Assembly (NCBI GenBank): GCA_029255645.1
Contig: JANLJE010000039.1
Span: 1-42,913, forward strand
DNA from: Comamonadaceae bacterium
Lineage (GTDB): Bacteria > Pseudomonadota > Gammaproteobacteria > Burkholderiales > Rhodocyclaceae
Length of the DNA stretch: 42,913 nucleotides
Direction of reading: 5' to 3'
The stretch's first letter is position 1; every line of letters begins with the position of its first letter. This document shows, one piece after another, positions 6,556-39,109 of the stretch. The notes under the pieces are model-generated. The model did not search any database, was not told the DNA's origin, and worked only from the letters and a program-made list of their open reading frames with translations. A program made the translations under genes and the position numbers.

Positions 6556-6621
6556 TCAAAGGCTGGCTTCGGCCTCAAAGGCTGGCTTCGACCTCAAAGG
6601 CTGGCTTCGGCCTCAAAGGCT
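6556..6621 (-). repeat. 19-bp stop-codon-anchored repeat at the 3' end of rlpA
   Basis: Reading along rlpA, the unit ggccgaagccagcctttga ends in the gene's own TGA (6594-6596). Two further copies follow, each ending in TGA (6575-6577 and 6556-6558), and a partial copy precedes inside the gene. Copies differ only by a C/T change. Because 19 is not a multiple of three, the three TGAs fall in three different frames. Confidence 0.95.
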
Positions 6622-7130
6622 TGAAGACAGATGGCCGGCTCCACCCCGGGAGCACCGCGCAAAGCCCGAGCCTCGACCTGCACCACCCCGGCCGACGCCA
6701 GCTGAATCGACTCGGCCGCCGCCAGGGAAAGGTCGACAATACGCAGCTGCTGGCGATCATGCATGCGGTCATTGACCCATGCCACCACGCAGTGATCGGT
6801 CCCCGGGCGACGCACCGCGATCCAGCTCCCCAGGGGAAAACGGTTGCTGGCCGCCGTGAAGGCCCGGCGGTCGAAGCGCTCCCCGCTGGCCGTGCGGCGC
6901 CCCTGGAATCTTGGGGTCTTGCCGTAATAACTGGCCTTGCCCCGCAGGATGGGGCCCAGGACTTCAGGCTCCACCTTGAGCACTGGCTCCCGCTCCACGG
7001 CTAGCCATTCCAGCCCGGGGTCTGGACGCAGTTCCGCCCCCGGGCCGTGCAATCCCTCTTCGGCCGCCAGGGGGAGGACCCCCAGGGCGAGCAGCATCAG
7101 CCCGCCTGCAATCCGTCGAATCGAGCGCAT
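6594..7130 (-). CDS. rlpA: RlpA-like double-psi beta-barrel protein (septal lytic transglycosylase family)
   Basis: A 178-residue exported protein with an N-terminal signal peptide (hydrophobic core LMLLALGVLPLA) and a double-psi beta-barrel domain (about 63-157). The family signatures KASYYGKTPRFQGRRTASGE and IVDLSLAAA are present. Asp133 in the second matches the catalytic Asp of RlpA enzymes that cleave naked glycan strands at the septum. There is no lipobox Cys and no C-terminal SPOR domain, so it is a short soluble periplasmic version rather than the classic lipoprotein. I chose the ATG at 7130; longer frames upstream run into the purM repeat array. The last coding bases belong to a 19-bp repeat. 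Confidence 0.85.
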   Translation of the reverse strand: MRSIRRIAGGLMLLALGVLPLAAEEGLHGPGAELRPDPGLEWLAVEREPVLKVEPEVLGPILRGKASYYGKTPRFQGRRTASGERFDRRAFTAASNRFPLGSWIAVRRPGTDHCVVAWVNDRMHDRQQLRIVDLSLAAAESIQLASAGVVQVEARALRGAPGVEPAICLQAFEAEASL

Positions 7131-7137
7131 CAAGGCT

Positions 7138-7207
7138 TCAACACCATGCGGCCTCACACCACCCGGCTTCACACCACCCGGCCTCACACCACCCGGCCTC
7201 ACACCAC
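7138..7207 (-). repeat. 15-bp stop-codon-anchored repeat at the 3' end of purM
   Basis: purM ends in gtggtgtga (Val-Val-stop). The unit ggccgggtggtgtga, containing that same ending, then follows three times with stops at 7184-7186, 7169-7171 and 7154-7156. A degenerate fourth copy ends at about 7138. The 15-bp unit keeps all copied stops in frame. The array occupies nearly the whole 68-bp purM-rlpA gap. Confidence 0.95.
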
Positions 7208-8251
7208 GCGCGTCTGGGCTTCGCCGCCCTGGCGGGCTTCGATCTTGCCGATCCGCCAGGCCTGCTCGCCGGTGCTCTGGAGCTGGGCCAGGGCGGCTTC
7301 AGCCTGGTCGGCGGCCACCACGATCACCATGCCGATGCCGCAGTTGAAGACCCGGTGCATCTCGTCCTCGGCCACATTGCCTTCGGCCTGCATCCAGTCA
7401 AACAGCCGGGGACGGGGCCAGGCGGCCTTTTCCAGCACGGCCACCACGTTGCCGGGCAGCACGCGGGGCACGTTTTCCAGCAGGCCGCCGCCGGTGATGT
7501 GGGCCATCCCCTTGACCGTCACCTTTTTCATCAGGGCCAGGACAGATTTGACGTAGATGCGGGTCGGAGCCATCACCACCTCTTCGAGGCTGCGCGCATT
7601 TCCGTCCACCACGTCGAAGGGTGCCTTCAGGTCGGGGCGGGAACGGTCGATGATCTTGCGCAGCAGGGAATAACCGTTGGAGTGGGCGCCGGAAGAGGCC
7701 AGGCCCAGGACCACGTCGCCGGGCAGGATGGTGGTGCCGTCGATGAGCCTGGACTTTTCCACCACGCCCACGGCAAAACCGGCCAGATCGTATTCACCGT
7801 CCGGATACATGCCGGGCATTTCGGCGGTTTCGCCGCCAATCAGGGCGCAGCCGGCCAGTTCGCAGCCCTTGGCGATGCCGCCCACGACGCTGGCGGCGAT
7901 CTCCACATCCAGCTTGCCGCAGGCAAAGTAGTCAAGGAAGAACAGGGATTCGGCGCCTTGCACCAGAATGTCATTGACGCTCATGGCCACCAGATCCTGG
8001 CCCACGGTGTCGTGGCGATCGAGCAGGAAGGCCAGCTTCAGCTTGGTGCCGACTCCATCGGTACCGGACACCAGTACCGGCTCCTGATAATGCCTGGGCA
8101 CTTCAAACAGGGCGCCGAAGCCACCGATGCCGCCCAGCACGCCGTCGCGCAGGGTTTTCCTGGCCAGGGGCTTGATGCGATCCACCAGCGCATCACCGGC
8201 GTCGATATCGACACCGGCGTCACGGTAGGAGAGGGAGGTCTGTGCACTCAT
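7199..8251 (-). CDS. purM: Phosphoribosylformylglycinamidine cyclo-ligase (AIR synthetase)
   Basis: A 350-residue cytoplasmic enzyme of purine synthesis that closes the imidazole ring of AIR using ATP. Family signatures are clear: [16 protein letters not shown] at the N-terminus, [13 protein letters not shown], the segment [31 protein letters not shown] and [15 protein letters not shown]. The length is normal. A good ribosome binding site (aagga) precedes the ATG. It is divergent from hda, a common arrangement, and rlpA follows 68 bp downstream in the same direction. Its last codons and stop are copied in tandem downstream. Confidence 0.97.
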
Positions 8252-8350
8252 TTACTTGATCCTTGGGAGTTTCCCGATAAAGCCTGGACGGGGTGATAAA
8301 ATCTGGCGCCCGAAAAAAACCGGATTCTACCCTAAACAGGCTCTTGCCCC

Positions 8351-9016
8351 ATGCGCCAACTCCTGCTCGACCTGATACCTGCCGCGCCGCCTTCCCTGGA
8401 CAATTTCGTCCCGGGTGGCAACGGCGAGACCCTGGCCGCCTTGAGCCTCTGGCGGGCGGGAGCCAACCCGGAATCGAGCTTTCTGCTCTGGGGCGAACCC
8501 GGTTCCGGCAAGAGCCACCTGCTGCTCGCCAGCGGTTTCGTTTACCGGGATGCCCGCCAGACCCCGGACCTGGCCGACCTGCCCGAGCTGCTCGAAACTC
8601 CGGAAACCCTGGCCGTGGATCATGTCGAAGCCCTTTCGGAAGCCGGCCAGATCGCCCTGTTCAACGCCTTCAACCGCATCCGCGCCAGCGGTGGCCGGCT
8701 GCTCACCGCGGCCAGCCAGGCCGCCGCGCATCTGACTTTGCGAGAAGACCTGCGTACCCGTCTGGGCTACGGCCTGATTTACCGCCTGCAGCCCCTTTCC
8801 GATCCGGAAAAGATCGCCGCCCTGAGCAATCAGGCCCGTGAGCGGGCCATGAAATTCCCCCCGGAAGCCATGGACCACCTGCTGCGCCACGCCCCCCGGG
8901 ACATGCGCAGCCTCTCTGCCCTGGTAGAAGCCCTGGACCGCTACTCCCTCGAACACAAACGCCCCATCACCCTGCCCCTGCTCAGGGAGGTGCTGGCCTC
9001 ACCCCTGGAACACTGA
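8351..9016 (+). CDS. hda: DnaA regulatory inactivator Hda
   Basis: A 221-residue DnaA-related AAA+ protein. The N-terminal QLLLDL (residues 3-8) is a clamp-binding motif, as expected for Hda, which works with the DNA-loaded beta clamp to stimulate ATP hydrolysis by DnaA and prevent re-initiation. Walker A is GEPGSGKSH (48-56), and the Walker B-like segment is TLAVDHVEAL near residue 90. It lacks the DNA-binding domain IV of DnaA, so it is not DnaA itself. It is first in a rightward cluster with the HAD phosphatase (1-bp gap), pcnB and folK, an order common in Betaproteobacteria. Confidence 0.93.
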   Translation: MRQLLLDLIPAAPPSLDNFVPGGNGETLAALSLWRAGANPESSFLLWGEPGSGKSHLLLASGFVYRDARQTPDLADLPELLETPETLAVDHVEALSEAGQIALFNAFNRIRASGGRLLTAASQAAAHLTLREDLRTRLGYGLIYRLQPLSDPEKIAALSNQARERAMKFPPEAMDHLLRHAPRDMRSLSALVEALDRYSLEHKRPITLPLLREVLASPLEH

Positions 9017-9017
9017 C

Positions 9018-9701
9018 ATGGAACTTGCACTTTTCGACCTGGACAACACCCTGCTTTCGGGAGACTCGGATTTCGAGTGGGCCCAGTTCCTGATCAGCAA
9101 AGGGGTGCTGGATCGTGAGGTCCAGGAAGCCAGGAACCTCCAGTTCTACGAGCAATACAAGGCCGGCACCCTGGACATCCATGAATTCCTGGCCTTCCAG
9201 CTGGCGCCCCTGACCCGCTATCCCCGTGCCAGGCTGGATGCCTGGCATCAGGAATTCATGGCCCGGCATGTACGCCCGATCATGGGGGACGCAGCCCGGC
9301 AAAAGGTGCAACAGCATCTCGAGGCCGGCCACCTGTGCGCCCTGGTCACCGCCACCAACAGCTTTGTCACCGGCCCCATCGCCCGGGAATTCGGCATCGG
9401 CAACCTGATCGCCACCATCCCCGCCTGCAAGCAGGATGCCCAGGGTGCCTTTACCGGCCAGCCCCGCGGCACCCCGGCCTTCAAGGAAGGCAAGGTCAGC
9501 CGGGTCGAGGCCTGGCTGGAATCCCTGGGCCTGTGGTGGGGCAGCTTCGACAAGACCTGGTTCTACAGCGACTCCCATAACGACCTGCCCCTGCTGGAGC
9601 GGGTCAGCCACCCGATCGCGGTGGACCCGGACGACAAACTGCGTCAGACCGCCCAGGCAAAAGCGTGGCAAATCATCAGCCTGCGTGCGAATGCAGTATG
9701 A
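9018..9701 (+). CDS. HAD-IB family phosphatase (SerB-like)
   Basis: A 227-residue haloacid dehalogenase-superfamily hydrolase, subfamily IB. Motif I FDLDNTLL contains the nucleophile Asp7 and acid Asp9, motif II is VTATNSF, and motif IV is SDSHNDLPLL. The helical cap lies between motifs I and II. The family includes phosphoserine phosphatase-like and histidinol phosphatase-like enzymes; the substrate here is unknown. It starts two bases after the hda stop and lies 27 bp before pcnB, so it is probably part of the same transcript. Confidence 0.88.
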   Translation: MELALFDLDNTLLSGDSDFEWAQFLISKGVLDREVQEARNLQFYEQYKAGTLDIHEFLAFQLAPLTRYPRARLDAWHQEFMARHVRPIMGDAARQKVQQHLEAGHLCALVTATNSFVTGPIAREFGIGNLIATIPACKQDAQGAFTGQPRGTPAFKEGKVSRVEAWLESLGLWWGSFDKTWFYSDSHNDLPLLERVSHPIAVDPDDKLRQTAQAKAWQIISLRANAV

Positions 9702-9728
9702 TGACGCCCTTTCCAGAATGACCATCGG

Positions 9729-11102
9729 ATGATTCGCAAATTCATCAGCCGCGTATTCGGGGGCAAAAGCAACGGCGCCCCCCTCCAGAAAACGGGTTCC
9801 GCCTCCGCCAAAGACAGCAAGGCTGCGGTAATCCCCCGTTCCACCCACGGCATCAGCCGGGACCAGATCAGCAGCGGCAGTCGCCGGGTCTGCGAGACCC
9901 TGCAAAGCCACGGTTACAAGGCCTACGTGGTCGGCGGCGCCGTGCGCGACCTGCTGATCGGCGCCACCCCCAAGGATTTCGACGTGGCCACCAATGCCAC
10001 ACCGGAGCAGGCCAGGCGCTGCTTCCGCCGCTCCCGGGTGATCGGTCGCCGCTTCCAGATCGTCCATGCCTACATGGGCCAGGAAATCATCGAAATCACC
10101 ACCTTCCGGGGTGGCCTGGTCGATGATGCCAAGACCGATGCCCACGGCCGGGTGCTGCAGGACAACGTGTTCGGCACCCAGGCGGAAGACGCCGCACGCC
10201 GGGACTTCACCGTCAATGCCCTGTATTTCGACCCCGCCACCGAGCAGATCGTCGATTACCACCACGGCGTGGCCGACCTGAAGCAGAAAACCCTGCGCAT
10301 GATCGGCAATCCCAGGCTGCGCTACCGGGAAGACCCGGTGCGGATGCTGCGGGCCGTGCGCCTGGCCGCCAAACTGGGACTCTCCATCGACCCGGAAGCC
10401 CGGCACCCGATCCGGGAAATGGCCGAACTGCTGGAAAACGTGCCCGCCTCCCGCCTGTTTGACGAAATGCTGAAGCTGCTCACCTCCGGCCATGCCGTGA
10501 AGTGCCTGCAGCAATTGCGCGCCGAAGGCCTGCACCACGGCGTACTGCCCCTGCTGGACGTGATTCTGGAACAGCCTCTGGGCGAAAAATTCGTGCTGCT
10601 CTCCCTGGCCAATACCGATGAGCGCATCCGTCAGGGCAAGAGTTCCTCTCCCAGCTTCCTGTTTGCCACCCTGCTCTGGCATGAAGTGCTGAGCGTTTGG
10701 GAACGAATCAAGGCGGGCGGCGAATCCTCCATTCCCGCCCTGTATCAGGCCATGGAAGAAGTCTTGAATATCCAGGGCGAAAAACTGGCCATCACCCGCC
10801 GCATTGCAGGCGACATCAAGGAAATCTGGGCCCTCCAGCCCCGTTTCGAGCAACGGGCCGGCCGGCGCCCCTATGCGGTACTGGAACACCCGCGCTTCCG
10901 GGCCGCCTATGACTTCCTCTGCCTGCGCGCCCAGGCCGGCGAACTGGATGCGGAACTGGCCGACTGGTGGACCCGCTTTCAGGATGCGGACGGCGAAGCC
11001 CGGAGCCAGATGCTGCTGCCCGACCAGGGCGCCAGAAAGAAACGCCGGCGGCGCAAGCCCAGGGCAGCCAGCGCCCCCACCGCTCCAGCAGAACAAGGAT
11101 GA
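9729..11102 (+). CDS. pcnB: Poly(A) polymerase I
   Basis: A 457-residue class II nucleotidyltransferase. The active-site segment VVGGAVRDLLIG is followed by PKDFDVATNA with metal ligands Asp83 and Asp85. The region GRRFQIVHAY and a long helical body follow. The C-terminus ends in a very basic tail (RKKRRRRKPRA) that resembles the RNA-binding tail of PcnB rather than a CCA-adding enzyme. PcnB adds poly(A) to RNA 3' ends and promotes decay. Its stop overlaps the folK start by four bases (ATGA), so the two are coupled. Confidence 0.93.
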   Translation: MIRKFISRVFGGKSNGAPLQKTGSASAKDSKAAVIPRSTHGISRDQISSGSRRVCETLQSHGYKAYVVGGAVRDLLIGATPKDFDVATNATPEQARRCFRRSRVIGRRFQIVHAYMGQEIIEITTFRGGLVDDAKTDAHGRVLQDNVFGTQAEDAARRDFTVNALYFDPATEQIVDYHHGVADLKQKTLRMIGNPRLRYREDPVRMLRAVRLAAKLGLSIDPEARHPIREMAELLENVPASRLFDEMLKLLTSGHAVKCLQQLRAEGLHHGVLPLLDVILEQPLGEKFVLLSLANTDERIRQGKSSSPSFLFATLLWHEVLSVWERIKAGGESSIPALYQAMEEVLNIQGEKLAITRRIAGDIKEIWALQPRFEQRAGRRPYAVLEHPRFRAAYDFLCLRAQAGELDAELADWWTRFQDADGEARSQMLLPDQGARKKRRRRKPRAASAPTAPAEQG

Positions 11103-11587
11103 ACCCCGTTGTTGCCTACATCGCCCTGGGCGCCAACCTGGGCTCCCCCAGGGAGACGGTGCGCCAGGCCATGACCGGCCTGGACCACTTGCCGGAAACC
11201 CGGCTGCTCAAGAGTTCTTCCCTCTACCAGAGCGCTCCGCTCGGGCTGCTGGACCAGCCCGACTTCATCAACGCCGTGGCCGCAGTGGAAACCACCCTGC
11301 CGGCGGTAGCGCTGCTGCAGGCCCTGCTGGATGCAGAACAGCGACAGGGCCGGGTGCGCAGCATCGCCAACGCCCCGCGCACCCTGGATCTGGATCTCCT
11401 GCTCTACGGCGATCTGGTCCTGGACACCCCGGCCCTCACCCTGCCCCACCCCCGCCTGCACCTGCGCGCCTTCGTCCTGGAACCCCTGGCCGAAATCGCC
11501 CCGGATCTGACATTACCCGGCCGGGGCAGCGTCGCCGCCTGGCGGCCCGCCTTGCGCAACCAGACGATCCGGCGCCTGCCATGCTGA
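11099..11587 (+). CDS. folK: 2-amino-4-hydroxy-6-hydroxymethyldihydropteridine pyrophosphokinase
   Basis: A 162-residue folate-pathway enzyme that transfers pyrophosphate from ATP to 6-hydroxymethyl-dihydropterin. The start of the fold is IALGANLG, and the signature APRTLDLDLLLYGD contains the Mg-binding Asp97 and Asp99, matching Asp95 and Asp97 of E. coli HPPK. I chose the ATG at 11099, which overlaps the pcnB stop and begins exactly at the domain. Its end overlaps the start of the next gene by seven bases. Confidence 0.96.
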   Translation: MNPVVAYIALGANLGSPRETVRQAMTGLDHLPETRLLKSSSLYQSAPLGLLDQPDFINAVAAVETTLPAVALLQALLDAEQRQGRVRSIANAPRTLDLDLLLYGDLVLDTPALTLPHPRLHLRAFVLEPLAEIAPDLTLPGRGSVAAWRPALRNQTIRRLPC

Positions 11588-11931
11588 ACCAGCCGGTATT
11601 CTGGCAGGCGGCCGGGCTGCTGGTGCTCTCCAACCTGTTCATGACCTTTGCCTGGTACGGGCACCTGAAACACCTGGCCGACCGGCCCTGGTGGATCGCC
11701 GCCTTGCTGTCCTGGGGCATCGCCCTGTTTGAATACCTGCTGCAGGTTCCCGCCAACCGGATCGGCCACACGGCCCTGAGTCTGGCGCAACTGAAAATCC
11801 TGCAAGAAGTGATCTCCCTGTCGGTATTCATCCCTTTCGCGCTAAGCTACATGCAGCAACCTTTGCAACTCGATTATCTGTGGGCCGCCCTCTGCCTGCT
11901 GGGCGCGGTCTACTTCATTTTCCGGGCCTGA
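11581..11931 (+). CDS. DUF486 (DMT superfamily) membrane protein
   Basis: A 116-residue integral membrane protein with four predicted helices (about 10-27, 39-56, 66-86 and 95-114), matching the DUF486 family of small drug/metabolite-transporter-like proteins. The characteristic segments [12 protein letters not shown] and [12 protein letters not shown] are present. The function is not established. It overlaps folK by seven bases and is probably translated from the same message. Confidence 0.85.
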
Positions 11932-11975
11932 GGGCCACCCTGAAAAACCCCTGGACAACAACGAAGGAGACATGG

Positions 11976-13103
11976 ATGTTTGGTTTGTTCGGCCCCCGCC
12001 AGGATCCAGCTGCCCTGGCCCGCATTGCCACCCTGGAACAGGAAAATGCCACCCTGACCCAACACCTGCACGACCTGGAGCATCAGGTCGAAGATGCGGA
12101 AAAACGCTGTAACGCCGCCCTTGACGTGACCCAGGGCTGGGAACACCTGCTCAAGAACCTGGATAATTTCGGCGGCAGCCTGGGCGTCTCCCAGCAGACC
12201 CTGGCCCTGCTGGCCGAGGAGCTCAAGGAGGAGAAGAGCGAAGCCCTGCGGGCAGCCAACATCTCCGCCGCCAGCCGCGACCTGATGCAGAAGATCAGCC
12301 ACGATCTGGCCACCCTGGCCCAGGAATCCCGCCAGACCATGAGCATCGTCGATGGCCTCAACAGCAGCACCGTGCAGATCGGCAACATCCTTTCCCTGAT
12401 CAAGGAAATCGCCGACCAGACCAATCTACTGGCCCTCAACGCCGCCATCGAGGCCGCCCGGGCCGGAGAAGCCGGACGCGGATTTGCCGTGGTGGCCGAC
12501 GGGGTGCGCAAGCTGGCAGAGCGCACCAGCAAGGCCACCAGCGACACCTTCAACCTGGTGAACAACATCCAGCGCGATACCGCCAACGCCCATTCCAGCA
12601 TGGAAAATCTGGCCCGGATGTCCGCCGATTTCGGCAATGCCGGCGCCGAGGCCGCCGAACGCATCGAAGGCATCCTGGAAACCTCCCACAAGATGGAATT
12701 CGCCATCGCCGTGGCCGCCCTGCGCAGCTTCACGGAACTGGCCAAGATGGACCACCTGGTCTTCAAGTTCGAGATCTACAAGGTGTTCATCGGGGTTTCC
12801 GGGAAGAAGCCTGGCGATTTTTCCGACCACTGCATGTGCCGGCTCGGCAAGTGGTATTACGAGGGCGAAGGCAAGCAGTGTTTCTCCCGCCTGGATGGCT
12901 ACGCCGCCATGGAAAAACCCCACATCGCCGTACACCAGCATGGCCGCGAAGCCATCGAGAAACTTCATGCCGGTGATTTTTCCGGCGGCACCGAGTGCGT
13001 GGCCCGCATGGAAGCCGCGAGCATGGAGGTGCTCGACTGCCTGGAACGAATGGCCCGGGCCGGCGCGAACAACCCCGACATCCTCTGCATGGAGCACGGA
13101 TGA
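11976..13103 (+). CDS. Soluble methyl-accepting chemotaxis-type receptor with CZB zinc-binding domain
   Basis: A 375-residue cytoplasmic receptor with no membrane segment or periplasmic domain. After an N-terminal coiled coil (about 12-46) comes a short signalling hairpin whose tip reads [20 protein letters not shown] (144-163). The C-terminal domain (about 255-360) is a chemoreceptor zinc-binding (CZB) domain with the ligand pattern His260, Cys288 ([12 protein letters not shown]), His316 and His320. Such proteins sense zinc-linked or oxidant signals and can act in chemotaxis or with diguanylate cyclases. The near-invariant Glu of the tip motif VVADEVR is Gly176 here. No che genes are adjacent. 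A good ribosome binding site (gaaggaga) supports the ATG at 11976. Confidence 0.9.
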
Positions 13104-13146
13104 GCTTTCGCTGTTAGGATAATGCCCCCAACTTCCGGATAGACCC

Positions 13147-14791
<1,645 letters not shown>

Positions 14792-14827
14792 CCCGAATTC
14801 GACCGGAAAATACCGGGAATTCTCTGT

Positions 14828-14855
14828 TTGACAGCGGGGATTTAGTCGCTACAAT
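14828..14855 (+). promoter_or_regulatory. Promoter of panD
   Basis: TTGACA (14828-14833) and TACAAT (14850-14855) are spaced by 16 bp, close to the sigma-70 consensus. Transcription would start near 14862, so panD can be expressed independently of panBC. Confidence 0.8.
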
Positions 14856-14889
14856 GCCAATCCCTCAACACCTTGTGACGGATGACGCC

Positions 14890-15273
14890 ATGCAAAGAAT
14901 GATGCTCAAGTCCAAGTTGCATCGGGTAACCACTACCCATGCCGAACTGCACTATGAAGGCTCCTGTGCCATTGACGAGGACCTGCTGGAAGCTGCCGAC
15001 ATCAAGGAATACGAGCAGATCGACATCTGGAACATCAACAACGGCGAGCGCTTTACCACCTACGCGATTCGTGCCGAACGCGGTTCCGGCATCATCTCCG
15101 TCAACGGTTCCGCGGCGCGCAAGGCCGCCCCTGGCGACCTGCTGATCATCGCCACCTTTGTCGGCATGAACGAGCAGGAAATCGCCAGACACGAACCCAA
15201 GCTGGTTTATGCGGACGCCAACAACCGCATTTCACACACCAGTCAGCAGATCCAGATTCAGGCCGCCGCCTGA
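14890..15273 (+). CDS. panD: Aspartate 1-decarboxylase precursor
   Basis: A 127-residue pro-enzyme that makes beta-alanine from aspartate for pantothenate. The self-cleavage site Gly24-Ser25 ([12 protein letters not shown]) is intact, so Ser25 can form the pyruvoyl cofactor. I chose the ATG at 14890 ([13 protein letters not shown]) because it places cleavage at residue 24/25 as in E. coli. It has its own consensus promoter, and a repeat array followed by a strong terminator after it. Confidence 0.96.
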
Positions 15274-15338
15274 ACCCTGACTGATCCCTGACTGAACCCT
15301 GACTGAACCCTGACTGAACCCTGCCTGATCCCTGCCTG
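15271..15338 (+). repeat. 11-bp stop-codon-anchored repeat after panD
   Basis: The panD stop is followed without a gap by six 11-bp units of the form accctgactga, of which the first five end in TGA and the last is degenerate. Because 11 is not a multiple of three, successive stops fall in all three frames. The array ends 12 bases before the panD terminator. Confidence 0.95.
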
Positions 15339-15350
15339 GGACGCCCCATC

Positions 15351-15388
15351 AAAAAGCCCGGCTCCGCACCCTGCGGACCGGGCTTTTT
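15351..15388 (+). terminator. Terminator after panD
   Basis: aaaaagcccgg (15351-15361) pairs with ccgggcttttt (15378-15388). Inside, TCCGCA pairs with TGCGGA around a three-base loop, with one bulged C. This is a long, stable stem ending in five T residues. Confidence 0.93.
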
Positions 15389-15454
15389 CCTGGCTTGCTG
15401 CCAGAACCTGACAGAACCCACCAGAACGCGCGAAACACGCCCTCGTTCCGTAGG

Positions 15455-15484
15455 AAAAAAAACGCGACTCCGGGGAGTCGCGTT
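15455..15484 (-). terminator. Terminator of the minus-strand small RNA
   Basis: On the minus strand AACGCGACTC pairs perfectly with GAGTCGCGTT around the four-base loop CCCG and runs into eight T residues in all. No annotated protein gene ends here, which is what points to an RNA gene. Confidence 0.9.
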
Positions 15485-15561
15485 AAATCCACACCAAAGG
15501 AGGAGGGTGGAGGAGACAAAGGTCAAAACAACTTGAAGGAGACACCACAACTTGTTTCGAT
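15455..15561 (-). ncRNA. Probable small RNA with anti-Shine-Dalgarno tract
   Basis: A minus-strand unit of about 107 bases with no credible reading frame, bounded by its own promoter (15568-15596) and terminator (15455-15484). The start is placed seven bases after the -10 box and is an estimate. The middle of the RNA (15496-15522) is pyrimidine-rich and contains CTCCTCC and CCTCCTCCTTTGG. The second resembles the 3' tail of 16S rRNA and could pair with ribosome binding sites. A further TCTCCTTC lies at 15535-15542. By analogy with trans-acting RNAs that carry C/U-rich seed regions, it may block translation of several mRNAs. I cannot assign it to a known family. The 553-bp gap from panD to the OsmC-like gene holds this unit and no protein gene. 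Confidence 0.6.
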
Positions 15562-15567
15562 GGGTGA

Positions 15568-15596
15568 ATTATCCCCCACAAACAGGATCGAGGCAA
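15568..15596 (-). promoter_or_regulatory. Promoter of the minus-strand small RNA
   Basis: On the minus strand TTGCCT (15591-15596) and GATAAT (15568-15573) are spaced by exactly 17 bp. It faces the terminator about 110 bases away. Confidence 0.7.
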
Positions 15597-15599
15597 GAA

Positions 15600-15618
15600 A
15601 ATTGTGCGGCGCACAATT
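15600..15618. promoter_or_regulatory. Perfect palindrome upstream of the small RNA promoter
   Basis: AATTGTGCG-G-CGCACAATT is a 19-bp perfect dyad whose edge lies four bases from the -35 box of the small RNA promoter, a typical activator position. The pattern resembles LacI/GalR-family operators in form, but the binding protein is unknown. The AT-rich stretch from 15619 to 15800 shows no other structure I can support. Confidence 0.65.
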
Positions 15619-15826
15619 CCTTGAAAATGACTGGATAAAATAAACTTATCGTTAATATCTTGTTGATTTTATTGCGAATTGTAGTCATTAAAGAAACGAC
15701 TGAAGCACTCTTTAAATCCTGCCTCCGGGTCCAGCACGCCAATCTGCCAGAATTTTTGGTGCATGGCAGCAAAACAGTGGTTCAGCTATTCAGCTAAAAT
15801 AGCGGCTGCTTACCTGGAGAATGAAG

Positions 15827-16255
15827 ATGCAATGCACCGTAAAGTGGATGGGCGCCGACAGCGGCATGTCCTTCGTCGCGGAAACCGGCAGCGGCCATAT
15901 GGTGACCATGGATGGCGCGCCTGAAGCCGGCGGCCGCAACCTGGCCCCCCGCCCCATGGAAATGCTGCTGGCCGGCACCGGCGGATGCACGGCCTTCGAT
16001 ATCGTGATGATCCTGAAAAAAGGTCGCCACCAGGTCAGCGGCTGCGACGTCCGCCTGGAGGCCGAGCGGGCAGACAGCGACCCCAAGGTTTTCACCCGCA
16101 TTCACTTTCACTTCCGGGTCAGCGGCAAGAATCTCAAGCCCGAGGCCGTGGCACGCGCCATCGACCTGTCCAAGGACAAATACTGCTCCGCCTCCATCAT
16201 GCTGGGCAAAACCGCCGCAATCACCCACGACTTCGACATCATCGAAGTCGCCTGA
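15827..16255 (+). CDS. OsmC-like (YhfA-type) thiol peroxidase-family protein
   Basis: A 142-residue protein of the OsmC/Ohr superfamily. The two conserved cysteines are Cys54 (TGGCTAFDI) and Cys120 (KYCSASIML). Members reduce organic hydroperoxides through these thiols, although the YhfA branch, which this most resembles along its whole length, has no firmly established substrate. I chose the ATG at 15827 over the one at 15821 because ggaga ends seven bases before it and because E. coli YhfA starts at the same point (MQ..VKW). It stands alone, convergent with coq7. Confidence 0.88.
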   Translation: MQCTVKWMGADSGMSFVAETGSGHMVTMDGAPEAGGRNLAPRPMEMLLAGTGGCTAFDIVMILKKGRHQVSGCDVRLEAERADSDPKVFTRIHFHFRVSGKNLKPEAVARAIDLSKDKYCSASIMLGKTAAITHDFDIIEVA

Positions 16256-16299
16256 AGCCCCCAACTGCAGCCCCCAGCTGCTGCCCCCGGCTGCTGCCT

Positions 16300-16341
16300 T
16301 CAGACCCGCTACTTCAGACCCGCTACTTCAGACCCGATAAG
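16300..16341 (-). repeat. 14-bp stop-codon-anchored repeat at the 3' end of coq7
   Basis: coq7 ends in cgggtctga (Arg-Val-stop). The unit agtagcgggtctga then follows twice, so TGA recurs at 16314-16316 and 16300-16302. The 14-bp period puts the three stops in three different frames. Confidence 0.95.
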
Positions 16342-16954
16342 CCACCCGGGTCATGAGCCGGGCCGAGAGCTTCATCAGCAGCTTCACCGGACCCGGCAGG
16401 GGCGCAGCCCCGAGCCGCACGGCCGTCTCGGCGTGCTTCACCTCGTCCACCTTCATCTGTTCGAGGATGGCCCAGGACTTCTGATCCTGAGCCGGCAACT
16501 TGTCCAGATGGCGATCCAGATGCGCTTCGACCTGGCGCTCCGTTTCGGCCAGAAAACCCAGATTCCACCTGTCTCCCAGACGTCCCGCCGTCATGCCGAT
16601 GGCCAGGGCACCTGCATACCACAGGGGATTGAGCAGACTCTTGCGCCCCCCCATCGCGCGGATACGCTGCTCCGTCCAGGCCAGATGTTCGGTTTCCTCG
16701 TGGGCCGCCTCTTCCAGGGAAGCCCGGATCCGCTCGTTGGGCGAGGTCATGGCCTGCCCCTGGTACAGGGCCTGGGCACACACCTCCCCGACGTGGTTGA
16801 TACGCATCAGGGCCGCCACATGGCGGCGCTCGGCATCATTGAGCCCGGCTTCGGGCAATTGCGCCCCGGGCACCGGCCGGACACTGCGAGCCTCGGCAAA
16901 AACGGTCCGCAAGCCCTTGTCGATCGCCACGATCAAGCTGTCACTCCAGTTCAT
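16328..16954 (-). CDS. coq7: 2-nonaprenyl-3-methyl-6-methoxy-1,4-benzoquinol hydroxylase (demethoxyubiquinone hydroxylase)
   Basis: A 208-residue di-iron hydroxylase of the Coq7/CatA family, which carries out the last ring hydroxylation in ubiquinone synthesis. The iron ligands are all visible: Glu57, Glu87-x-x-His90, Glu139 and Glu171-x-x-His174. The C-terminal half contains weakly hydrophobic helices suited to interfacial membrane association. I chose the ATG at 16954 because aaaggagagg precedes it ideally and the family begins here. Its last codons and stop are copied in tandem downstream. Confidence 0.95.
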
Positions 16955-17332
16955 TTCCTCTCCTTTCAAAGCCATGCGCTTCGGGTTCGGGATCTCCGCT
17001 TCATCCAAACGCAGCCACCCGCAGCCACGTGAACCAAGCGCTACTGTTTTCCTGACCCGCATCCTGGCCCAGGCCGTCCTGATTCCCGCTGGCCCAGGAG
17101 GGCTGGCAGGCATGCACCCTGCAGATAAAATGCCAAGCCCCCGACAAGGTGAGCGGTGCAAGCAGGATCGCCGTCCAGGGCAATAGCGCCTATCACGGCA
17201 AAATCCTCATGCGCATTCAACTCAGGGAGAAGGCCCGCGGGAGAGGGAACAGGACTCCCGCGCCCGATATTCAGCGCAAAATTCAGCGCAAAATGGGCTG
17301 GCAACTGGGTCGGCAACGCCAGACAAGCTGGA
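16955..17332. other. Gene-free region between coq7 and the CNP1 gene
   Basis: I see no convincing gene in this stretch. It holds an 8-bp inverted repeat (cgcgggag, 17236-17243, with ctcccgcg at 17255-17262) and a tandem duplication of attcagcgcaaa (17269-17292). The promoter of coq7 must lie at its left end. Short open frames crossing it have no ribosome binding site or recognisable content. Confidence 0.6.
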
Positions 17333-17403
17333 TCAAGGAGGCCGGATCAAGGAGCCTGGATCAAGGAGCCTGGATCAAGGAGGCTGGATCAAGGAGCCTT
17401 GGA
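17333..17403 (-). repeat. 14-bp stop-codon-anchored repeat at the 3' end of the CNP1 gene
   Basis: The gene ends in tccaaggctccttga. Four near copies of tccaggctccttga follow directly, with stops at 17375, 17361, 17347 and 17333. The copies are one base shorter than the coding version, so the period is 14 and the stops cover all three frames. Confidence 0.95.
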
Positions 17404-17907
17404 TAAAGGCCGCCCCTCCTTCTTCAAGGCTCGCAGAATGTCGCTGACCCGGAAGGCAATCACCCCATCGGGACAGAGCAGATCGGTAAACAAGGCCGCA
17501 TGCTGGCGGTTGGTGACCTGCTCGCGAACAGGCTTCCACTGGTTGCTCCGAGCCTTGGACCAGCCTCCATCCGGCCGCCCTACCGCATAAATCCGCCATT
17601 CCCGGGTCTGGCAGCGCATGCCTTCAAAAGTGATGTTGCGCACTCCCGAATCACTGAGCGCCAGCAAGACGTAACGCACCACGCCGTCACTGCCGACAGA
17701 AAGACTTTCGGTGTCGAGAAAGAAACGGTTGGTGGCCGTGGGGCTCACATAAAAGCTGAGGAAGTTTTCGTCCTTGGGAAAGGGAGGCAGCTGAACGGCA
17801 ATCTCCTCCCAGGGTTTTTCCTCAAACTCCTCATCAAAGGCGGCCTGAGCCTGCACGGCAAGCCCCGCCAGGAACAGGGCACACAAGGTACGGACGAAAC
17901 TATTCAT
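17389..17907 (-). CDS. CNP1-like family exported protein
   Basis: A 172-residue protein with a signal peptide ([20 protein letters not shown], cut after AQA) and a mature part resembling the CNP1 (cryptic neisserial protein 1) family: [12 protein letters not shown] near the start, [18 protein letters not shown] and [15 protein letters not shown]. The family is found next to rppH and proS in many Betaproteobacteria; its role is unknown, presumably in the periplasm. Two cysteines in the mature part (GMRCQT and LLCPDG) may form a disulfide. Its start overlaps the rppH stop by eight bases, so translation is probably coupled. The 3' end runs into a stop-copying repeat array. Confidence 0.85.
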
Positions 17908-18445
17908 CTTCCCTTCCCTCCGCCGCTGGCGGTGTGGATGATGGATTTTCCTGGCGCAGGCGCCTGCGCTTGTCGGCTTCGAGAAAACGCGCCAGCTCAT
18001 TCAAGGCCTGGGAATAAACCCCACGCTTGAATTCGATCACGGTGTCCAGGGGAATCCAGTAGTCGTGCCAGCGCCAGGCGTCGAATTCGGGATGGGAACT
18101 GGCCCGCAGCGAGACATCACTGTCCCGTCCCACCAGGCGCAGCAAGAACCAGATCTGCTTCTGCCCCCGGTAAGATCCCCGCCATTCACGCTTGACCCAA
18201 TGTGTCGGCACTTCATAACGCAACCAGCCCTTGGTACGTCCCAGGATGGCCACATGCTCGGGAAGCAAACCGACTTCTTCGTGCAGTTCCCGATACATGG
18301 CCTGTTCCGGCGTTTCGCCCCGCTTGATGCCGCCTTGCGGAAACTGCCAGGAATGCTCCCGAATCCGTTTACCCCAGAAAACCTCGTTTTTTGCGTTACA
18401 AAGAATGATGCCGACGTTCGGGCGAAAGCCCTCTTTGTCGAGCAT
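17900..18445 (-). CDS. rppH: RNA pyrophosphohydrolase
   Basis: A 181-residue Nudix hydrolase that removes pyrophosphate from 5'-triphosphorylated RNA and so opens mRNAs to decay. The Nudix box spans residues 38-60 ([20 protein letters not shown] and VGL), with the metal-binding Glu residues of REL-HEE present. The start [17 protein letters not shown] is typical of RppH. The C-terminal basic segment (DKRRRLRQ) also fits. It is divergent from proS and overlaps the CNP1 gene. Confidence 0.95.
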
Positions 18446-18560
18446 AGCTAAATCCTGCTAAATATTTGGTTGAAGCGAATTCTTTCACAACTGTGACGCC
18501 CATGCAAAATTACCGCCCGGTGTAAAATCGAAGTTTTACCGGATATCGGACTCGTTGCTC

Positions 18561-20291
18561 ATGCGTTCCTCTCGATTTTTCTTCGCCACCCTCAAGGAAG
18601 CCCCGGCCGACGCCGAGGTCATCAGCCAGAAGCTCATGCTGCGCGCCGGCCTCATCAAGCGCGCCGCCGCGGGCATCTACACCTGGATGCCCCTGGGCCT
18701 CAGGGTCCTGCGCAAGGTAGAGAACATTGTCAGGGAAGAGATGAACAAGGCGGGCGCCCTGGAACTGCTGATGCCCGCCGTGCAGCCTGCCGAACTCTGG
18801 CAGGAATCGGGCCGCTGGGATAAATATGGCCCCGAGCTGCTGCGTTTCAAGGATCGCCACCAGCGCGACTTCGTCATCGGCCCCACCCACGAGGAAGTCA
18901 TCACCGACGTGGTGCGCCGCGACGTAAAGAGCTATCGTCAGCTGCCCTTGCACCTCTATCAGATCCAGACCAAGTTCCGGGACGAGATCCGGCCCCGCTT
19001 CGGCGTCATGCGCGGCCGGGAATTCCTGATGAAGGACGGCTATTCCTTTCACAGCAGCTTCGAGGACCTGAAGCGGGAATACCAGTCGATGTATGACACC
19101 TACAGCCGCATCTTCACCCGCCTGGGCCTGCAGTTCCGGGCCGTGGCGGCGGATACCGGCTCGATCGGCGGCACCGGCTCCCATGAGTTCCACGTCATTG
19201 CCGAGACCGGCGAGGACGACATCGCCTACTGCCCGGAATCCGGCTACGCCGCCAACGTGGAACTGGCCGAGGCCCTGGCGCCTGCCACGCCCCGCCCGGC
19301 CGCTACCGCAGAACTGGCCAAGGTGAGCACCCCGGGCCAGACCGCCTGTACCGACGTGGCCGGCTTCCTGAACATTCCGCTCTCCGGCCTGGTCAAGGCC
19401 ATCGCCGTGGTCAGCGAACCCGAAGAGGGGCCCCGGACCTTCGCCCTGCTGCTCCTGCGCGGCGACCACGAACTCAATGAAATCAAGGCGGGCAAGATCG
19501 CCGGCCTCAACCCCTTCCGCTTTGCCACGGAAGAAGAGGTGGAACGATTCCTGGGCTGCAAGCCCGGTTATATCGGGCCGGTCGGGGTGGATCCAGAAAA
19601 GGTGCGGGTCATTGCCGACCGGAGCGTCGCCGTCATGGCCGATTTCGTCTGCGGCGCCAACGCCGCGGGTTTTCACCTGAGTGGCGTGAATTTCGGCCGC
19701 GACTGCCCGGAACCCGAGCTGGCCGACCTGCGCAAGGTGGTGGCCGGCGACCCCTCCCCGGATGGCAAGGGCAATCTCGCCATCTGCCGGGGCATCGAAG
19801 TGGGCCACATCTTCCAGCTGCGCAGCACCTACGCCAAGGCCCTGAACTGCAGCTTCCTGGATGAACAGGGCAAGAGCCAGATCATGGAAATGGGCTGCTA
19901 CGGCATCGGCGTGTCGCGCATCGTCGGCGCCGCCATCGAACAGGGCCATGACGACAGGGGCATCATCTTCCCCGCCGCCATCGCCCCCTTCCAGGTCACC
20001 ATCGTGCCCATGGGCTACTACAAGAGCGAAATCGTGAAGGCCGCCGCCGACCAGCTTTACGAAGCACTCGAGGCCGCCGGCCTGGACGTGTTGCTGGACG
20101 ACCGGGACGAGCGGCCCGGCTCCATGTTCGCCGACATGGAACTGATGGGCGTGCCCCACCGCATCGTGGTGGGCGAGCGGGGCCTGGCCAACGGCCAGCT
20201 GGAATACAAGGGCCGCCAGGATGAGGAAGCCACCATGATCCCCGCCGATACCGCCCTGGCCTTCCTGCAGGAAAAGCTGTGCGCCGCCTGA
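18561..20291 (+). CDS. proS: Prolyl-tRNA synthetase (bacterial type with editing domain)
   Basis: A 576-residue class II aminoacyl-tRNA synthetase. The N-terminal catalytic core includes [20 protein letters not shown] and the motif-2 region [22 protein letters not shown] long insertion (about 225-405) is the editing domain that clears Ala-tRNA(Pro). Then come motif 3 ([13 protein letters not shown]) and the anticodon-binding domain. The length is that of the bacterial (non-archaeal) type. I chose the ATG at 18561; no strong ribosome binding site is visible. The stop lies inside the next gene, which overlaps by 13 bases. Confidence 0.97.
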
Positions 20292-20899
20292 TCGCCCTGT
20301 TGCTGCCATGCCTGGTTCCCGCCCTGGTATGGGCGGGAACCCAACAGTACGAACCCATGTCGGCCAGCGTCCAGGCGGCCCTGTCGGGCGCCATTGCCGA
20401 CAGGAAACCCCCTGCCAGTTCCTTCAAGGATTATTCGGAAGCCGTGGACTGGCTCTCCGCCATGTCTCCCCGGCTGGCCAGGCGCATTCCCGATCAGGAG
20501 TACCGCCTGGAACTGCTGCGCGCCATCCATTACGAAGCCACCCGGGCCGGACTGGACCCGCAGCTGGTGCTGGGCCTGATCCAGGTGGAATCCGGTTTCC
20601 GTAAATATGCCGTGTCCTCGGCGGGAGCCCGGGGCTACATGCAGGTCATGCCCTTCTGGCTCAAGTTGATCGGCCAGCCCGATGACAACCTGTTCCACAT
20701 GCGCACCAACCTACGCTATGGCTGCACCATCCTGCGCCACTACCTGGATATCGAAAAGGGCGACCTGTTCCGCGCCCTGGGCCGCTACAACGGCAGCCTG
20801 GGTCAATCCGGATACCCGAATCTGGTCAGGGGCGCCTGGAACCAGTGGCGCTACGAGCGCCAGCTGGCCATGGGCGAACCGGCGTCGCCCAAACCCTGA
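20279..20899 (+). CDS. Lytic transglycosylase (SLT domain, family 1)
   Basis: A 206-residue exported peptidoglycan lytic transglycosylase. A GTG start overlaps the end of proS by 13 bases and gives an ideal signal peptide ([20 protein letters not shown]). The SLT domain (about 88-190) has the catalytic Glu104 in LIQVESGF, followed by [17 protein letters not shown] and [12 protein letters not shown]. It cleaves the glycan between MurNAc and GlcNAc in the periplasm. Proximity to proS is common in Betaproteobacteria. Its stop is copied twice by an 8-bp repeat. Confidence 0.9.
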
Positions 20900-20919
20900 A
20901 TCCCTGAATCCCTGAATCC
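20893..20919 (+). repeat. 8-bp stop-codon-anchored repeat after the transglycosylase gene
   Basis: The gene ends in accctga. It is followed by atccctga twice, so TGA recurs at 8 and 16 bases past the true stop, closing all three frames. The rest of the 26-bp gap to the ffh stop is featureless. Confidence 0.9.
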
Positions 20920-20925
20920 CCTGGC

Positions 20926-22284
20926 TCAGCGCCCCATGCCGGGCAGCATCCCCTTCATGCCGCGCATCAGCTTGCCCAGCCCCCCCTTGGTGAATTGCTT
21001 CATCATCTTCTGAGTCTGTTCAAACTGGTTGAGCAGGCGATTCACCTCCTGCACCTGCACCCCGGCTCCCATGGCAATGCGGCGCTTGCGGCTTGCCTTG
21101 ATGAGTTCCGGCTTGGCCCGTTCGGTCGGCGTCATGGAATTGATGATGCCCTCCACCCGGCGAATCATCTTGTCCTCGGTCCCCACCGGCAACTGACCGG
21201 CCGCCTGGGCGATCTGGGTCGGCATCTTGTCCATCAGGGCGGAGATACCGCCCATCTTGCGCATCTGGCCGATCTGCTCCTTGAAATCGTTCAGATCAAA
21301 GCCCTTGCCGGATTTCAGCTTCCTGGCAAAGGCCATGGCCTTTTCTTCGTCCAGCCCCTTCCTGGCCTCTTCGATCAGCGACAGCACATCGCCCATGCCC
21401 AGAATGCGGGAGGCCATGCGTTCCGGATGAAAGGGTTCCAGCCCGGTGAGTTTTTCGCCGATACCGGAAAACTTGATGGGCTTGCCGGTCACATGGCGCA
21501 CCGACAGGGCCGCGCCGCCCCGGGCATCGCCATCGAGCTTGGTGAGCACGATGCCGGTAAGCGGCAGGGTTTCGTTGAAGGCCCGGGCCGTGTTGACCGC
21601 ATCCTGACCGAGCATGGCATCCACCACGAACAGGGTTTCGATCGGTTTCAAGGCCTCATGCAGGGACTTGATCTCGGCCATCATGGCCTCATCCACCGCC
21701 AGACGGCCGGCCGTATCCACCAGCACCACATCAAAGTAATGGCGCCTGGCCCAATCCACGGCACCCAGGGCAATGGCCTCGGGCTTTTCCGCCGTCGTGG
21801 AAGGGAAGCACTCGACGCCCGCCTGCCCGGCCACGGTCTGCAACTGCTGGATGGCGGCCGGACGGTACACATCGCAGGACACCACCAGCACCTTCTTCTT
21901 CAGCGTTTCCTTCAGGTACTTGCCCAGTTTGCCCACCGTCGTGGTCTTGCCCGCCCCCTGGAGGCCCGCCATCAGCACCACGGCGGGCGGCTGGGTGGCA
22001 AGATTGAGGCCCTCATGAGCCCCGCCCATGAGCCGGGTCATTTCCTTATGGACAACCCCGACCAGGGCCTGGCCCGGCGTCAGGGAAGCAATGACCTCCT
22101 CGCCTACGGCCTTTTCCTTCACGGCTGCAATGAAATCTTTCACCACCGGCAGGGCCACATCGGCCTCCAGCAGGGCCATGCGCACTTCACGGAGGGCCGC
22201 CGAGATGTTCTCTTCGGTCAGGCGAGCCTCTCCCCGCAGGGTCTTCATTACTTTGGCAAGGCGTTGCGTCAGGTTGTCGAGCAT
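20926..22284 (-). CDS. ffh: Signal recognition particle protein Ffh
   Basis: A 452-residue SRP54-type GTPase that binds 4.5S RNA and signal sequences and directs nascent membrane proteins to FtsY. The N domain (1-95) is followed by the G domain with GLQGAGKTT (107-115), DTAGRLAVDE, TKLDGDARGGAALS and the later GIGEKL segment. The Met-rich M domain ends in MMKQFTKGGLGKLMRGMKGM. The length is normal. It is divergent from the cytochrome c assembly-like gene, the usual betaproteobacterial arrangement. Confidence 0.97.
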   Translation of the reverse strand: MLDNLTQRLAKVMKTLRGEARLTEENISAALREVRMALLEADVALPVVKDFIAAVKEKAVGEEVIASLTPGQALVGVVHKEMTRLMGGAHEGLNLATQPPAVVLMAGLQGAGKTTTVGKLGKYLKETLKKKVLVVSCDVYRPAAIQQLQTVAGQAGVECFPSTTAEKPEAIALGAVDWARRHYFDVVLVDTAGRLAVDEAMMAEIKSLHEALKPIETLFVVDAMLGQDAVNTARAFNETLPLTGIVLTKLDGDARGGAALSVRHVTGKPIKFSGIGEKLTGLEPFHPERMASRILGMGDVLSLIEEARKGLDEEKAMAFARKLKSGKGFDLNDFKEQIGQMRKMGGISALMDKMPTQIAQAAGQLPVGTEDKMIRRVEGIINSMTPTERAKPELIKASRKRRIAMGAGVQVQEVNRLLNQFEQTQKMMKQFTKGGLGKLMRGMKGMLPGMGR

Positions 22285-32082: not shown

Positions 32083-33060
<978 letters not shown>

Positions 33061-33066
33061 GCGGAC

Positions 33067-34710: not shown

Positions 34711-36518
<1,808 letters not shown>

Positions 36519-36559: not shown

Positions 36560-36587
36560 TTGATATAGAATAGCAGGTTTGTAAATA
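36560..36587 (+). promoter_or_regulatory. Putative promoter of the cytochrome c4 gene
   Basis: TTGATA (36560-36565) and TAAATA (36582-36587) are spaced by 16 bp, about 50 bases upstream of the start codon in an AT-rich part of the divergent gap. Confidence 0.6.
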
Positions 36588-36637
36588 TCGATACTTGGCA
36601 GGCTCTCCCGCCTCTCTCGCGTAAAAGGAGTTTGGAC

Positions 36638-37273: not shown

Positions 37274-37320
37274 CCCCTGCCTTGCCGGACAGCCCGCCCG
37301 CACAGCGGAGACCGGCGCTT

Positions 37321-37374
37321 CGGGTTTGAGTCGCACGACGGGTTTGAGCCGCACGACGGGTTTGAGCCGCACAA
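37321..37374. repeat. 18-bp tandem repeat downstream of cytochrome c4
   Basis: cgggtttgagtcgcacga is followed by two near copies (t to c at one position, last copy ending aa). It lies 48 bases after the cytochrome c4 stop and is not a copy of the gene end. The rest of the 296-bp gap to the CBS gene has no clear gene. Confidence 0.93.
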
Positions 37375-37569
37375 GGCTCGGCGGCTGCCCGGCGGGCACG
37401 GCGGGACAAGCGACAAGATTTCAGGCTTCGATCCTCCACAGGCTGCGCTTGTGGCGCACCCGGAAGGAGCGCTGAAAATGGCACTCCCCATCTATCTGGC
37501 CCACCAGCCTGTTGCGCATTCAGCGGTCAGACGATTGGACTCCAGGCGCAGAACAACAAGAGGTAGGCA

Positions 37570-38001: not shown

Positions 38002-38033
38002 TGCGATGGCAAGCGGGCCAGTCCGGTCCCGGA

Positions 38034-38057
38034 GAAGCCCGCCGCCCGGCGGGCTTC
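38034..38057 (+). terminator. Hairpin after the CBS gene
   Basis: gaagcccgcc pairs perfectly with ggcgggcttc around a four-base loop, 32 bases after the stop. There is no T-run beyond the stem. The remaining 140 bp up to the HDOD gene show nothing I can support. Confidence 0.6.
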
Positions 38058-38199
38058 GTCATTCAGTGGGCCGGCAGGGGCGAGGGGCTTGCATGCCCTG
38101 AAGCAGGTCGGCGCCGCCGCGAACAAATTCAACGGATAGGTCACACGCACCCAAAAAAGCGTTAAGTTCACCCCTTGCCGCCAACGTAATCATATTCCC

Positions 38200-39042
38200 A
38201 TGACCAACACGGTTGATTCCCTCCATTTCCGCGTCCTCGAAGACATCGCCAAGGATCTCTCCGGCGAGATCAATTTCCCGACCTACCTGGATGCCAGCAT
38301 GACCGTGCGCAATGTATTGCGCGACCCCCGGGTCTCCGTCGAGAAGGTGGCCCAGGTCATCAGCATCGAACCGCTGATCGCCGCCCGGCTACTGCGCCTG
38401 GCCAACTCGGTCACCTACAACCCGGCCGGAAAAAGCATCACCGACATCCGCACCGCCATCCACCGGGTCGGCTTTGAAACCGTGCGCACCACGGCCCTGA
38501 GCGTCGCCATCGAGCAGATGCTGCAATCCGGGAACCTGACAGCCTTCGAGGATATTGGCCGTCTCACCTGGGAACACTCCCTGCAAGTCGCCGCCATCGC
38601 CCGGGTGCTGGCCCGCCGCCTCGGCCGGGTCAATCCTGAAGACGCCATGCTGGCCGGCATGGTGCACGACATCGGCGTGTTTTACCTGCTTTATCGCGCG
38701 GCGGAATACCCGGAGTACAAGAACAACCGCGCAGACCTGCTCAGCCTGGTGATCGGCTGGCACGAAAGCATCGGCGAGAGCCTGCTCTACACCCTGGGCA
38801 TGCCCGAACCCATCATCGAGGCCATCCGCGAACATGATCAACTCAAGCATGTAGATACCCCCAGCAGCCTGGCCGACGTGCTCTATTTCGCCAACCTCCT
38901 GGCCGGAGGTAACCATGAGTGGCTAGGTTGCGATAGCGGGCTGGCCGACAGCGAACGGGCCGCCGCCGACCGGGCCCGTTATGCCGACCTGCTGGACGAG
39001 GCCTGGGACGACATCCGGGAAATCCAGGCGGCCCTGACTTGA
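38200..39042 (+). CDS. HDOD domain protein
   Basis: A 280-residue signalling-type protein with one HDOD domain (about 18-215). Typical segments are INFPTYLDASMTVRNVL, ARLLRLANSVTYNP and AIHRVGFETVRTTALS. The HD-like dyad is in AGMVHDIGVFYLLY, with a later HESIGE and REHDQLKH. Here the HD dyad is intact, unlike in many HDOD proteins, but the other metal ligands are not clearly assignable, so activity is uncertain. Its last four codons and stop (gccctgacttga) are duplicated directly downstream. Confidence 0.87.
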   Translation: MTNTVDSLHFRVLEDIAKDLSGEINFPTYLDASMTVRNVLRDPRVSVEKVAQVISIEPLIAARLLRLANSVTYNPAGKSITDIRTAIHRVGFETVRTTALSVAIEQMLQSGNLTAFEDIGRLTWEHSLQVAAIARVLARRLGRVNPEDAMLAGMVHDIGVFYLLYRAAEYPEYKNNRADLLSLVIGWHESIGESLLYTLGMPEPIIEAIREHDQLKHVDTPSSLADVLYFANLLAGGNHEWLGCDSGLADSERAAADRARYADLLDEAWDDIREIQAALT

Positions 39043-39054
39043 GCCCTGACTTGA
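39031..39054 (+). repeat. 12-bp stop-codon-anchored duplication at the 3' end of the HDOD gene
   Basis: gccctgacttga encodes Ala-Leu-Thr-stop and is followed immediately by an identical copy, so a second in-frame TGA lies 12 bases beyond the first. It is the shortest array of this type in the window. Confidence 0.9.
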
Positions 39055-39109
39055 GCCCCGGCGGCAGACCCGGGCAGCCATTTTTTCCTGGCAGAGGAAC
39101 ATGGGCGCA

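Follow-up and report, generated by a model that had tools for sequence, protein, structure and literature searches.

Short tandem repeat arrays were found over the stop codons of eight genes in a 42,913-nucleotide stretch of DNA (the window), which is part of contig C39 (JANLJE010000039.1) of an uncultured betaproteobacterium with a genome of 2.93 Mb in 72 contigs (G000; GCA_029255645.1). The case is a burst of minisatellites in a bacterium; one in four of the non-coding arrays that survive extends over a stop codon. We proposed that the arrays probably arose in a tandem-duplication mutator phase of this lineage and were filtered by selection, which would have tolerated those over stop codons and removed almost all of those over start codons.

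The preliminary description of the window had listed eight genes that end in tandem copies of their own last codons and stop. All eight arrays were recovered by Tandem Repeats Finder (TRF) at the claimed periods, each covering the stop codon of its own gene. The list was incomplete, as a ninth array follows osmC, and the start of its range (6556-39058) fell 10 bases inside the rlpA array, which truly begins at 6546. The nine arrays located by TRF are:

6546..6621, minus strand: rlpA stop array, 19 bp x 4 copies; gene at 6594-7202, minus strand
7141..7207, minus strand: purM stop array, 15 bp x 4.5; gene at 7199-8251, minus strand
15270..15338, plus strand: panD stop array, 11 bp x 6.3, lying between stop and terminator hairpin
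16257..16298, plus strand: array after osmC, 13 bp x 3.2, one base past the stop at 16253-16255
16298..16336, minus strand: coq7 stop array, 14 bp x 2.8; gene on the minus strand
17328..17409, minus strand: stop array of the CNP1 gene, 14 bp x 5.8; gene at 17389-17907, minus strand
20894..20920, plus strand: stop array of the SLT transglycosylase gene, 8 bp x 3.4; gene at 20279-20899
33002..33061, plus strand: argB stop array, 15 bp x 4; gene at 32128-33015
39031..39058, plus strand: stop array of the HDOD gene, 12 bp x 2.3; gene at 38200-39042

The stop codon lay within the first unit in six of the eight stop arrays and within the second unit in rlpA and CNP1. The gene names agreed with Pfam matches, for rlpA via the DPBB domain and for argB via the amino acid kinase family. 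The best named matches of purM were Zoogloeaceae, Dechloromonas and unclassified Betaproteobacteria records at 82-83% protein identity.

Genome-wide counts were obtained from a 942-kb sample, about a third of the genome, in which 783 genes were called by our own script instead of a published caller. TRF arrays with a score of at least 50 were counted. Arrays lying more than half inside genes were excluded from the non-coding counts, periods below 7 were also excluded from some counts, and contigs C2, C8, C9, C10, C15 and C19 (read as N) and the duplicate contig C41 were left out. Altogether 152 non-coding arrays were recorded. A stop codon was covered by 38 of them, against 9.3 expected from uniform non-coding placement, whereas start codons were covered by two, against 9.9 expected. 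In the first 576 kb, 28 of 110 arrays lay at stops (6.8 expected) and two at starts (7.3 expected). The excess at stops, obtained against uniform placement, shrank under a gap-aware null, as shown below.

The units were unrelated in sequence. Only four similar pairs were found among 148 units, compared with zero to three in five shuffles, which speaks against a dispersed repeat family and upholds the earlier view that a process had generated the arrays. No A bias was seen, the A fraction being 0.198 in stop arrays (sense strand), 0.15-0.18 in other arrays and 0.19-0.21 in intergenic DNA; arrays away from stops were somewhat higher in G+C than intergenic DNA. Period, copy number and the identity between copies did not differ significantly between stop arrays and other arrays.

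Array insertion and density in relatives

The genome was compared with relatives that are mostly fragmented draft assemblies. The closest sampled relative (G008) shares a median protein identity of 85.6% over 199 orthologs. An ortholog was present in the G008 sample for 15 of the 38 stop-array genes, and 12 of these 15 end at the identical codon; the stops of purM and CNP1 stand at the same position in both genomes. Two further orthologs differ by one amino acid (the HDOD protein is one amino acid longer in G008), and rlpA is seven residues shorter here. The rlpA array extends 28 nt into the gene and, judging by this comparison of the sequences, may itself have created the present stop.

Of nine syntenic gaps with a stop array, eight exceeded their G008 counterparts in length, and in six the excess matched the added array sequence to within 12 bp. 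After argB, the convergent gap measured 51 bp here and 6 bp in the relative, with 45 bp of extra array, equal to three added units. The corresponding values were 106 against 12 bp (extra array 92 bp) for a gap on contig C30, 130 against 93 bp (38 bp) for one on contig C6, 26 against 12 bp (19 bp) for the convergent gap after the SLT gene, and 101 against 40 bp (52 bp) between purM and rlpA. The osmC and coq7 arrays together fill a convergent gap of 72 bp, which is 6 bp in G008 (extra array 54 bp). The median difference in array-free gaps between the two genomes was 0 bp for 111 co-directional, -25.5 bp for six convergent and 3 bp for 19 divergent gaps. The arrays are therefore insertions in most syntenic gaps, and the gene ends are ancestral for 12 of the 15 genes.

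Such insertions were concentrated in this lineage. This genome had 74 arrays in its 440 gaps of 10-300 bp (44.2 kb), G008 had one in 267 such gaps (24.0 kb), and the relatives G003, G006, G018 and G022 had none in 107, 46, 37 and 52, respectively (together 242 gaps, 23.4 kb). Seventeen pooled congeners (241.6 kb) yielded 14 non-coding arrays, or 2.4 per 10 kb, and none of their 194 genes had a stop array. Named betaproteobacterial loci of at least 5 kb, the size to which that comparison was restricted, held 42 non-coding arrays (30 in high-GC and 12 in low-GC loci) and four stop arrays among 1,185 genes, with 2.75 expected from placement. The panD stop was covered by no array in all 18 relatives over which it was read, ten further relatives standing outside this comparison.

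The congener G018 had the highest density among the individually sampled relatives (4.0 non-coding arrays per 10 kb). Its locus L188 carries perfect 7-bp arrays at 462-516 (7.9 copies) and 8640-8682 (6.1 copies), both called non-coding and off stops.

Placement of the arrays and the proposed mechanism

Uniform placement is a poor null because the gaps are short and the arrays avoid starts. Further, a within-gap null was constructed, in which each array was collapsed to one unit and the placements leaving genes intact were counted gap by gap. Gaps shorter than 300 bp, either co-directional or convergent, held 75 arrays, 33 of them over a stop. The expectation was 19.0, 21.7, 24.3 and 28.2 (z of 4.7, 3.8, 2.9 and 1.7) when 0, 20, 35 and 60 bp, respectively, were kept free before the start. 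Array edges peaked within 12 bases upstream of the gene end and few were found just upstream of starts, while array coverage stayed level between the stop and a point about 50 bp downstream.

Because intergenic gaps are so short, many duplications include the neighbouring stop. Most of the stop overlap, though not all, is accounted for by geometry and tolerance; a modest excess is left, which is clearest in convergent gaps. The earlier claim of a process specific to gene ends was not borne out, since 114 of the 152 non-coding arrays lay off stops and short gaps together with start avoidance explain most of the overlap. Slippage tolerated outside coding sequence fitted best among the explanations offered in the preliminary description.

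It was proposed that the lineage is, or has been, in a phase of strongly raised tandem duplication with units of roughly 8-24 bp. The duplications would then grow in copy number, most simply via replication slippage or local template switching, and purifying selection would determine which of them survive: inside genes mainly those in multiples of three, over starts almost none. A unit containing the stop leaves the protein, promoter and terminator intact, therefore its duplication would be tolerated and presumably nearly neutral. The gaps are also short, with some convergent genes of G008 standing 6-12 bp apart, hence many of the tolerated placements include a stop.

The periods of the arrays agreed with such a filter, being multiples of three in 69 of 78 coding arrays and in 15 of 38 stop arrays, the latter with no in-frame bias. 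Among intergenic arrays, an excess of multiples of three was confined to large gaps (22 of 33 in gaps above 600 bp, 4 of 16 in gaps below 150 bp), where it probably reflects genes missed by the caller. Of 38 isolated duplications with two copies, 12 had at least three extra matching bases, where chance predicts about 6%, and 17 had none, so short homology may help sometimes and is not required.

The families of mutS, polA, recJ, sbcD, xseA, mfd, dnaQ and RNase HI were present in this genome and had no internal stops. In the G008 draft no polA match was found, and the dnaQ and RNase HI searches did not include G008. The C-terminal domain of exonuclease I was absent in this genome and in the nine congeners searched, and Ku was absent in 23 of 23 genomes searched.

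Several results weigh against a mutator phase filtered by selection. No mutator lesion was found among the eight repair families, mutL and many others being outside the search. The residual stop excess was 33 against 24.3 with 35 bp excluded before the start, and over all gap lengths with the same exclusion it was 37 of 116 against 25.2 (z of 3.8). This excess was found mainly in convergent gaps 60-150 bp long, where 10 of 17 arrays covered a stop and 3.5 were expected. In collapsed coordinates, a null for the whole genome predicted 6.0 arrays at stops, and 37 of 137 were counted. A local test using the present gap lengths gave a ratio of 3.1, threefold in convergent and co-directional gaps alike, a value that is biased because the arrays themselves inflate the present gap lengths; the within-gap nulls replaced this test. 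Of 72 coding arrays, 11 were crowded into the final 30 nt of their genes, against about 2.5 expected, a pattern compatible with tolerant C-termini as well as with a hot spot. Stop arrays also scored slightly above other arrays (80 against 69, p 0.025).

The comparison with relatives had its own contrary points. Three of the nine syntenic gaps fit less well, and one of them, on contig C14, is shorter here than in G008 (81 against 92 bp). The contrast was weaker over all non-coding DNA, with 9.0 arrays per 10 kb here and 0.4, 1.6, 0.4, 4.0 and 0 in G008, G003, G006, G018 and G022, respectively; it is smaller because the arrays of the relatives sit in long gaps, where the caller may miss genes. 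Perfect repeats of 9-40 bp likewise gave 8.9 here against 1.25 in G008.

The about fortyfold difference from G008 in short gaps, together with eight seemingly intact repair families, points to an unknown control on duplications of 8-24 bp. Dozens of unrelated insertions whose ancestral state can be read in a relative also constitute a natural map of insertion tolerance, in which stops accept insertions and starts do not.

Hot spot, back-up stops and transcript ends as less likely explanations

An alternative explanation is that translation termination is itself a mutational hot spot in this lineage: release of the ribosome would uncouple RNA polymerase, and R-loops, backtracking or fork collisions at the ends of genes would seed tandem duplications centred on the stop. 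This was judged unlikely. It would account for the excess over the uniform null and the residue within gaps, for the peak of array edges before the gene end and for the coding arrays near gene 3' ends. TGA/TCA occurred in 31 of the 114 units off stops (37.5 expected), and the relevant factor would therefore be position instead of a DNA motif; a TGA motif effect as such was not supported by these counts. On the other hand, gap-aware nulls removed much of the excess, three quarters of the non-coding arrays lay off stops, and mfd and RNase HI are present. Codon bias, used as a proxy of expression, did not differ at array genes (p 0.53). The stronger form, in which stops are a true duplication hot spot because a defect in replication-transcription-translation coupling makes the point of ribosome release fragile, seemed quite unlikely. 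If true, the genome would record its translation termination sites as tandem duplications.

Selection for extra stops behind the gene, guarding against readthrough, had been suggested in the preliminary description and was found very improbable. TGA is often called the leakiest stop codon, and arrays occurred at 31 of 335 TGA ends compared with 6 of 141 TAA or TAG ends (gaps of at least 20 bp; significance not computed). The next in-frame stop followed after a median of 5 codons in 13 array genes with periods in multiples of three and of 11 codons in 19 genes with other periods, and it was farther, at 39 codons, in 319 array-free genes. However, back-up stops would favour in-frame units, and the stop units showed no such preference. 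Past the 319 array-free ends, stops per 20 codons amounted to 0.38 in frame and 0.42 in each other frame, thus with no in-frame excess. TGA is also kept as the main stop in 375 of 501 genes, and most arrays cover no stop at all. Back-up stops were therefore not supported.

Participation of the arrays in RNA 3'-end formation, as alternative or additional terminators, was considered still less probable. Their location at 3' ends is in its favour, and in gaps of 60-149 bp arrays were found at 10 of 62 convergent and 7 of 112 co-directional gene ends. Terminators were assessed at gene ends with gaps of at least 60 bp, where hairpins followed by a T-run were detected by our script; the SLT gene and argB fell outside this test, their gaps being below 60 bp. 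Such hairpins were present at 11 of 32 array ends and 65 of 319 array-free ends (Fisher p 0.07), a tendency opposite to replacement. Hence the idea that arrays and hairpins are alternatives was not supported. The units have no common sequence, and the panD array is missing in all 18 relatives read.

Within the window, the script detected hairpins after rlpA, panD, CNP1 (weak) and HDOD, and none after purM and coq7. A generic terminator scan of 6300-21300 returned 16 sites against 14.8 in shuffles, thus no excess; it listed the rlpA hairpin and lacked the panD and CNP1 hairpins of the script. The earlier statement that only panD possesses a clear terminator consequently failed for rlpA, where a hairpin with its T-run was found by both methods.

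An origin of the arrays as assembly artefacts was likewise regarded as highly improbable, since a median length of 41 bp, with 98.7% of the arrays at or below 150 bp, means that short reads could span them; copies within many arrays differ from one another, arrays occur on 18 of the 20 sampled contigs, and reading frames are mostly kept inside genes. In favour of artefacts are two of the 31 examined contig ends, which fall within or close to an array (those of C39 and C18, where the contig starts within it), and the existence of two contigs, C39 and C41, with the same sequence. The two contig starts suggest that perfect arrays may break or shorten the assembly.

As a separate observation, C39 and C41 of this genome are 100% identical over 42,858 bases in opposite orientation. 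The remaining arrays of the window are:

1..63, no strand assigned: array at the contig end, 12 bp x 5.2, away from stops
1009..1045, no strand assigned: intergenic array, 12 bp x 3.1, away from stops
3541..3580, no strand assigned: intergenic array, 15 bp x 2.7, away from stops
3833..3881, no strand assigned: intergenic array, 11 bp x 4.2, away from stops
17269..17294, no strand assigned: intergenic array, 12 bp x 2.2, away from stops
37321..37372, no strand assigned: intergenic array, 18 bp x 2.9, 47 bp past a gene end
39244..39283, no strand assigned: intergenic array, 20 bp x 2

Comparison with known systems

Variable-number tandem repeat (VNTR) or minisatellite loci of bacteria are short head-to-tail arrays in intergenic DNA, with a copy number that varies from strain to strain. 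The arrays described here resemble them in their head-to-tail copies and in a unit size above about 6 bp; the duplicate contig C41 matched the window exactly wherever the two overlap. Searches of the open-access literature, several of them narrowly phrased, found no paper describing unrelated arrays across bacterial stops, and the nearest papers concerned Borg elements and Beggiatoaceae.

Borgs are giant extrachromosomal elements of archaea which are described as carrying perfect A-rich repeats across one genome that are virtually absent from the host; the periods of their coding repeats are all divisible by three, a number of arrays start inside the ends of genes, and flanking partial repeats occur (PMC9879509). 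The present genome is similar in having many unrelated units over one genome, arrays at gene ends and coding repeats in multiples of three, although the latter hold for 69 of 78 coding arrays here and for all those reported in the Borg paper (PMC9879509). It differs in that 53 of the 152 non-coding arrays are perfect, no A bias exists, the genome is bacterial and starts are avoided.

In marine Beggiatoaceae, one shared heptamer, TAACTGA, is described as placed mostly just before starts, with 13 cases overlapping the upstream stop (PMC4679880). Common to both are intergenic direct repeats across one lineage, some of them over the stop of the upstream gene. Here, in contrast, the units differ by locus and start codons are avoided. 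The mycobacterial interspersed repetitive units (MIRUs) resemble the present arrays in their position at gene junctions. They are described as apparently mobile repeats inserted at start codons (PMC12548453). Unlike them, the units of the present arrays are local copies made at each site, and no dispersed homologous element is involved.

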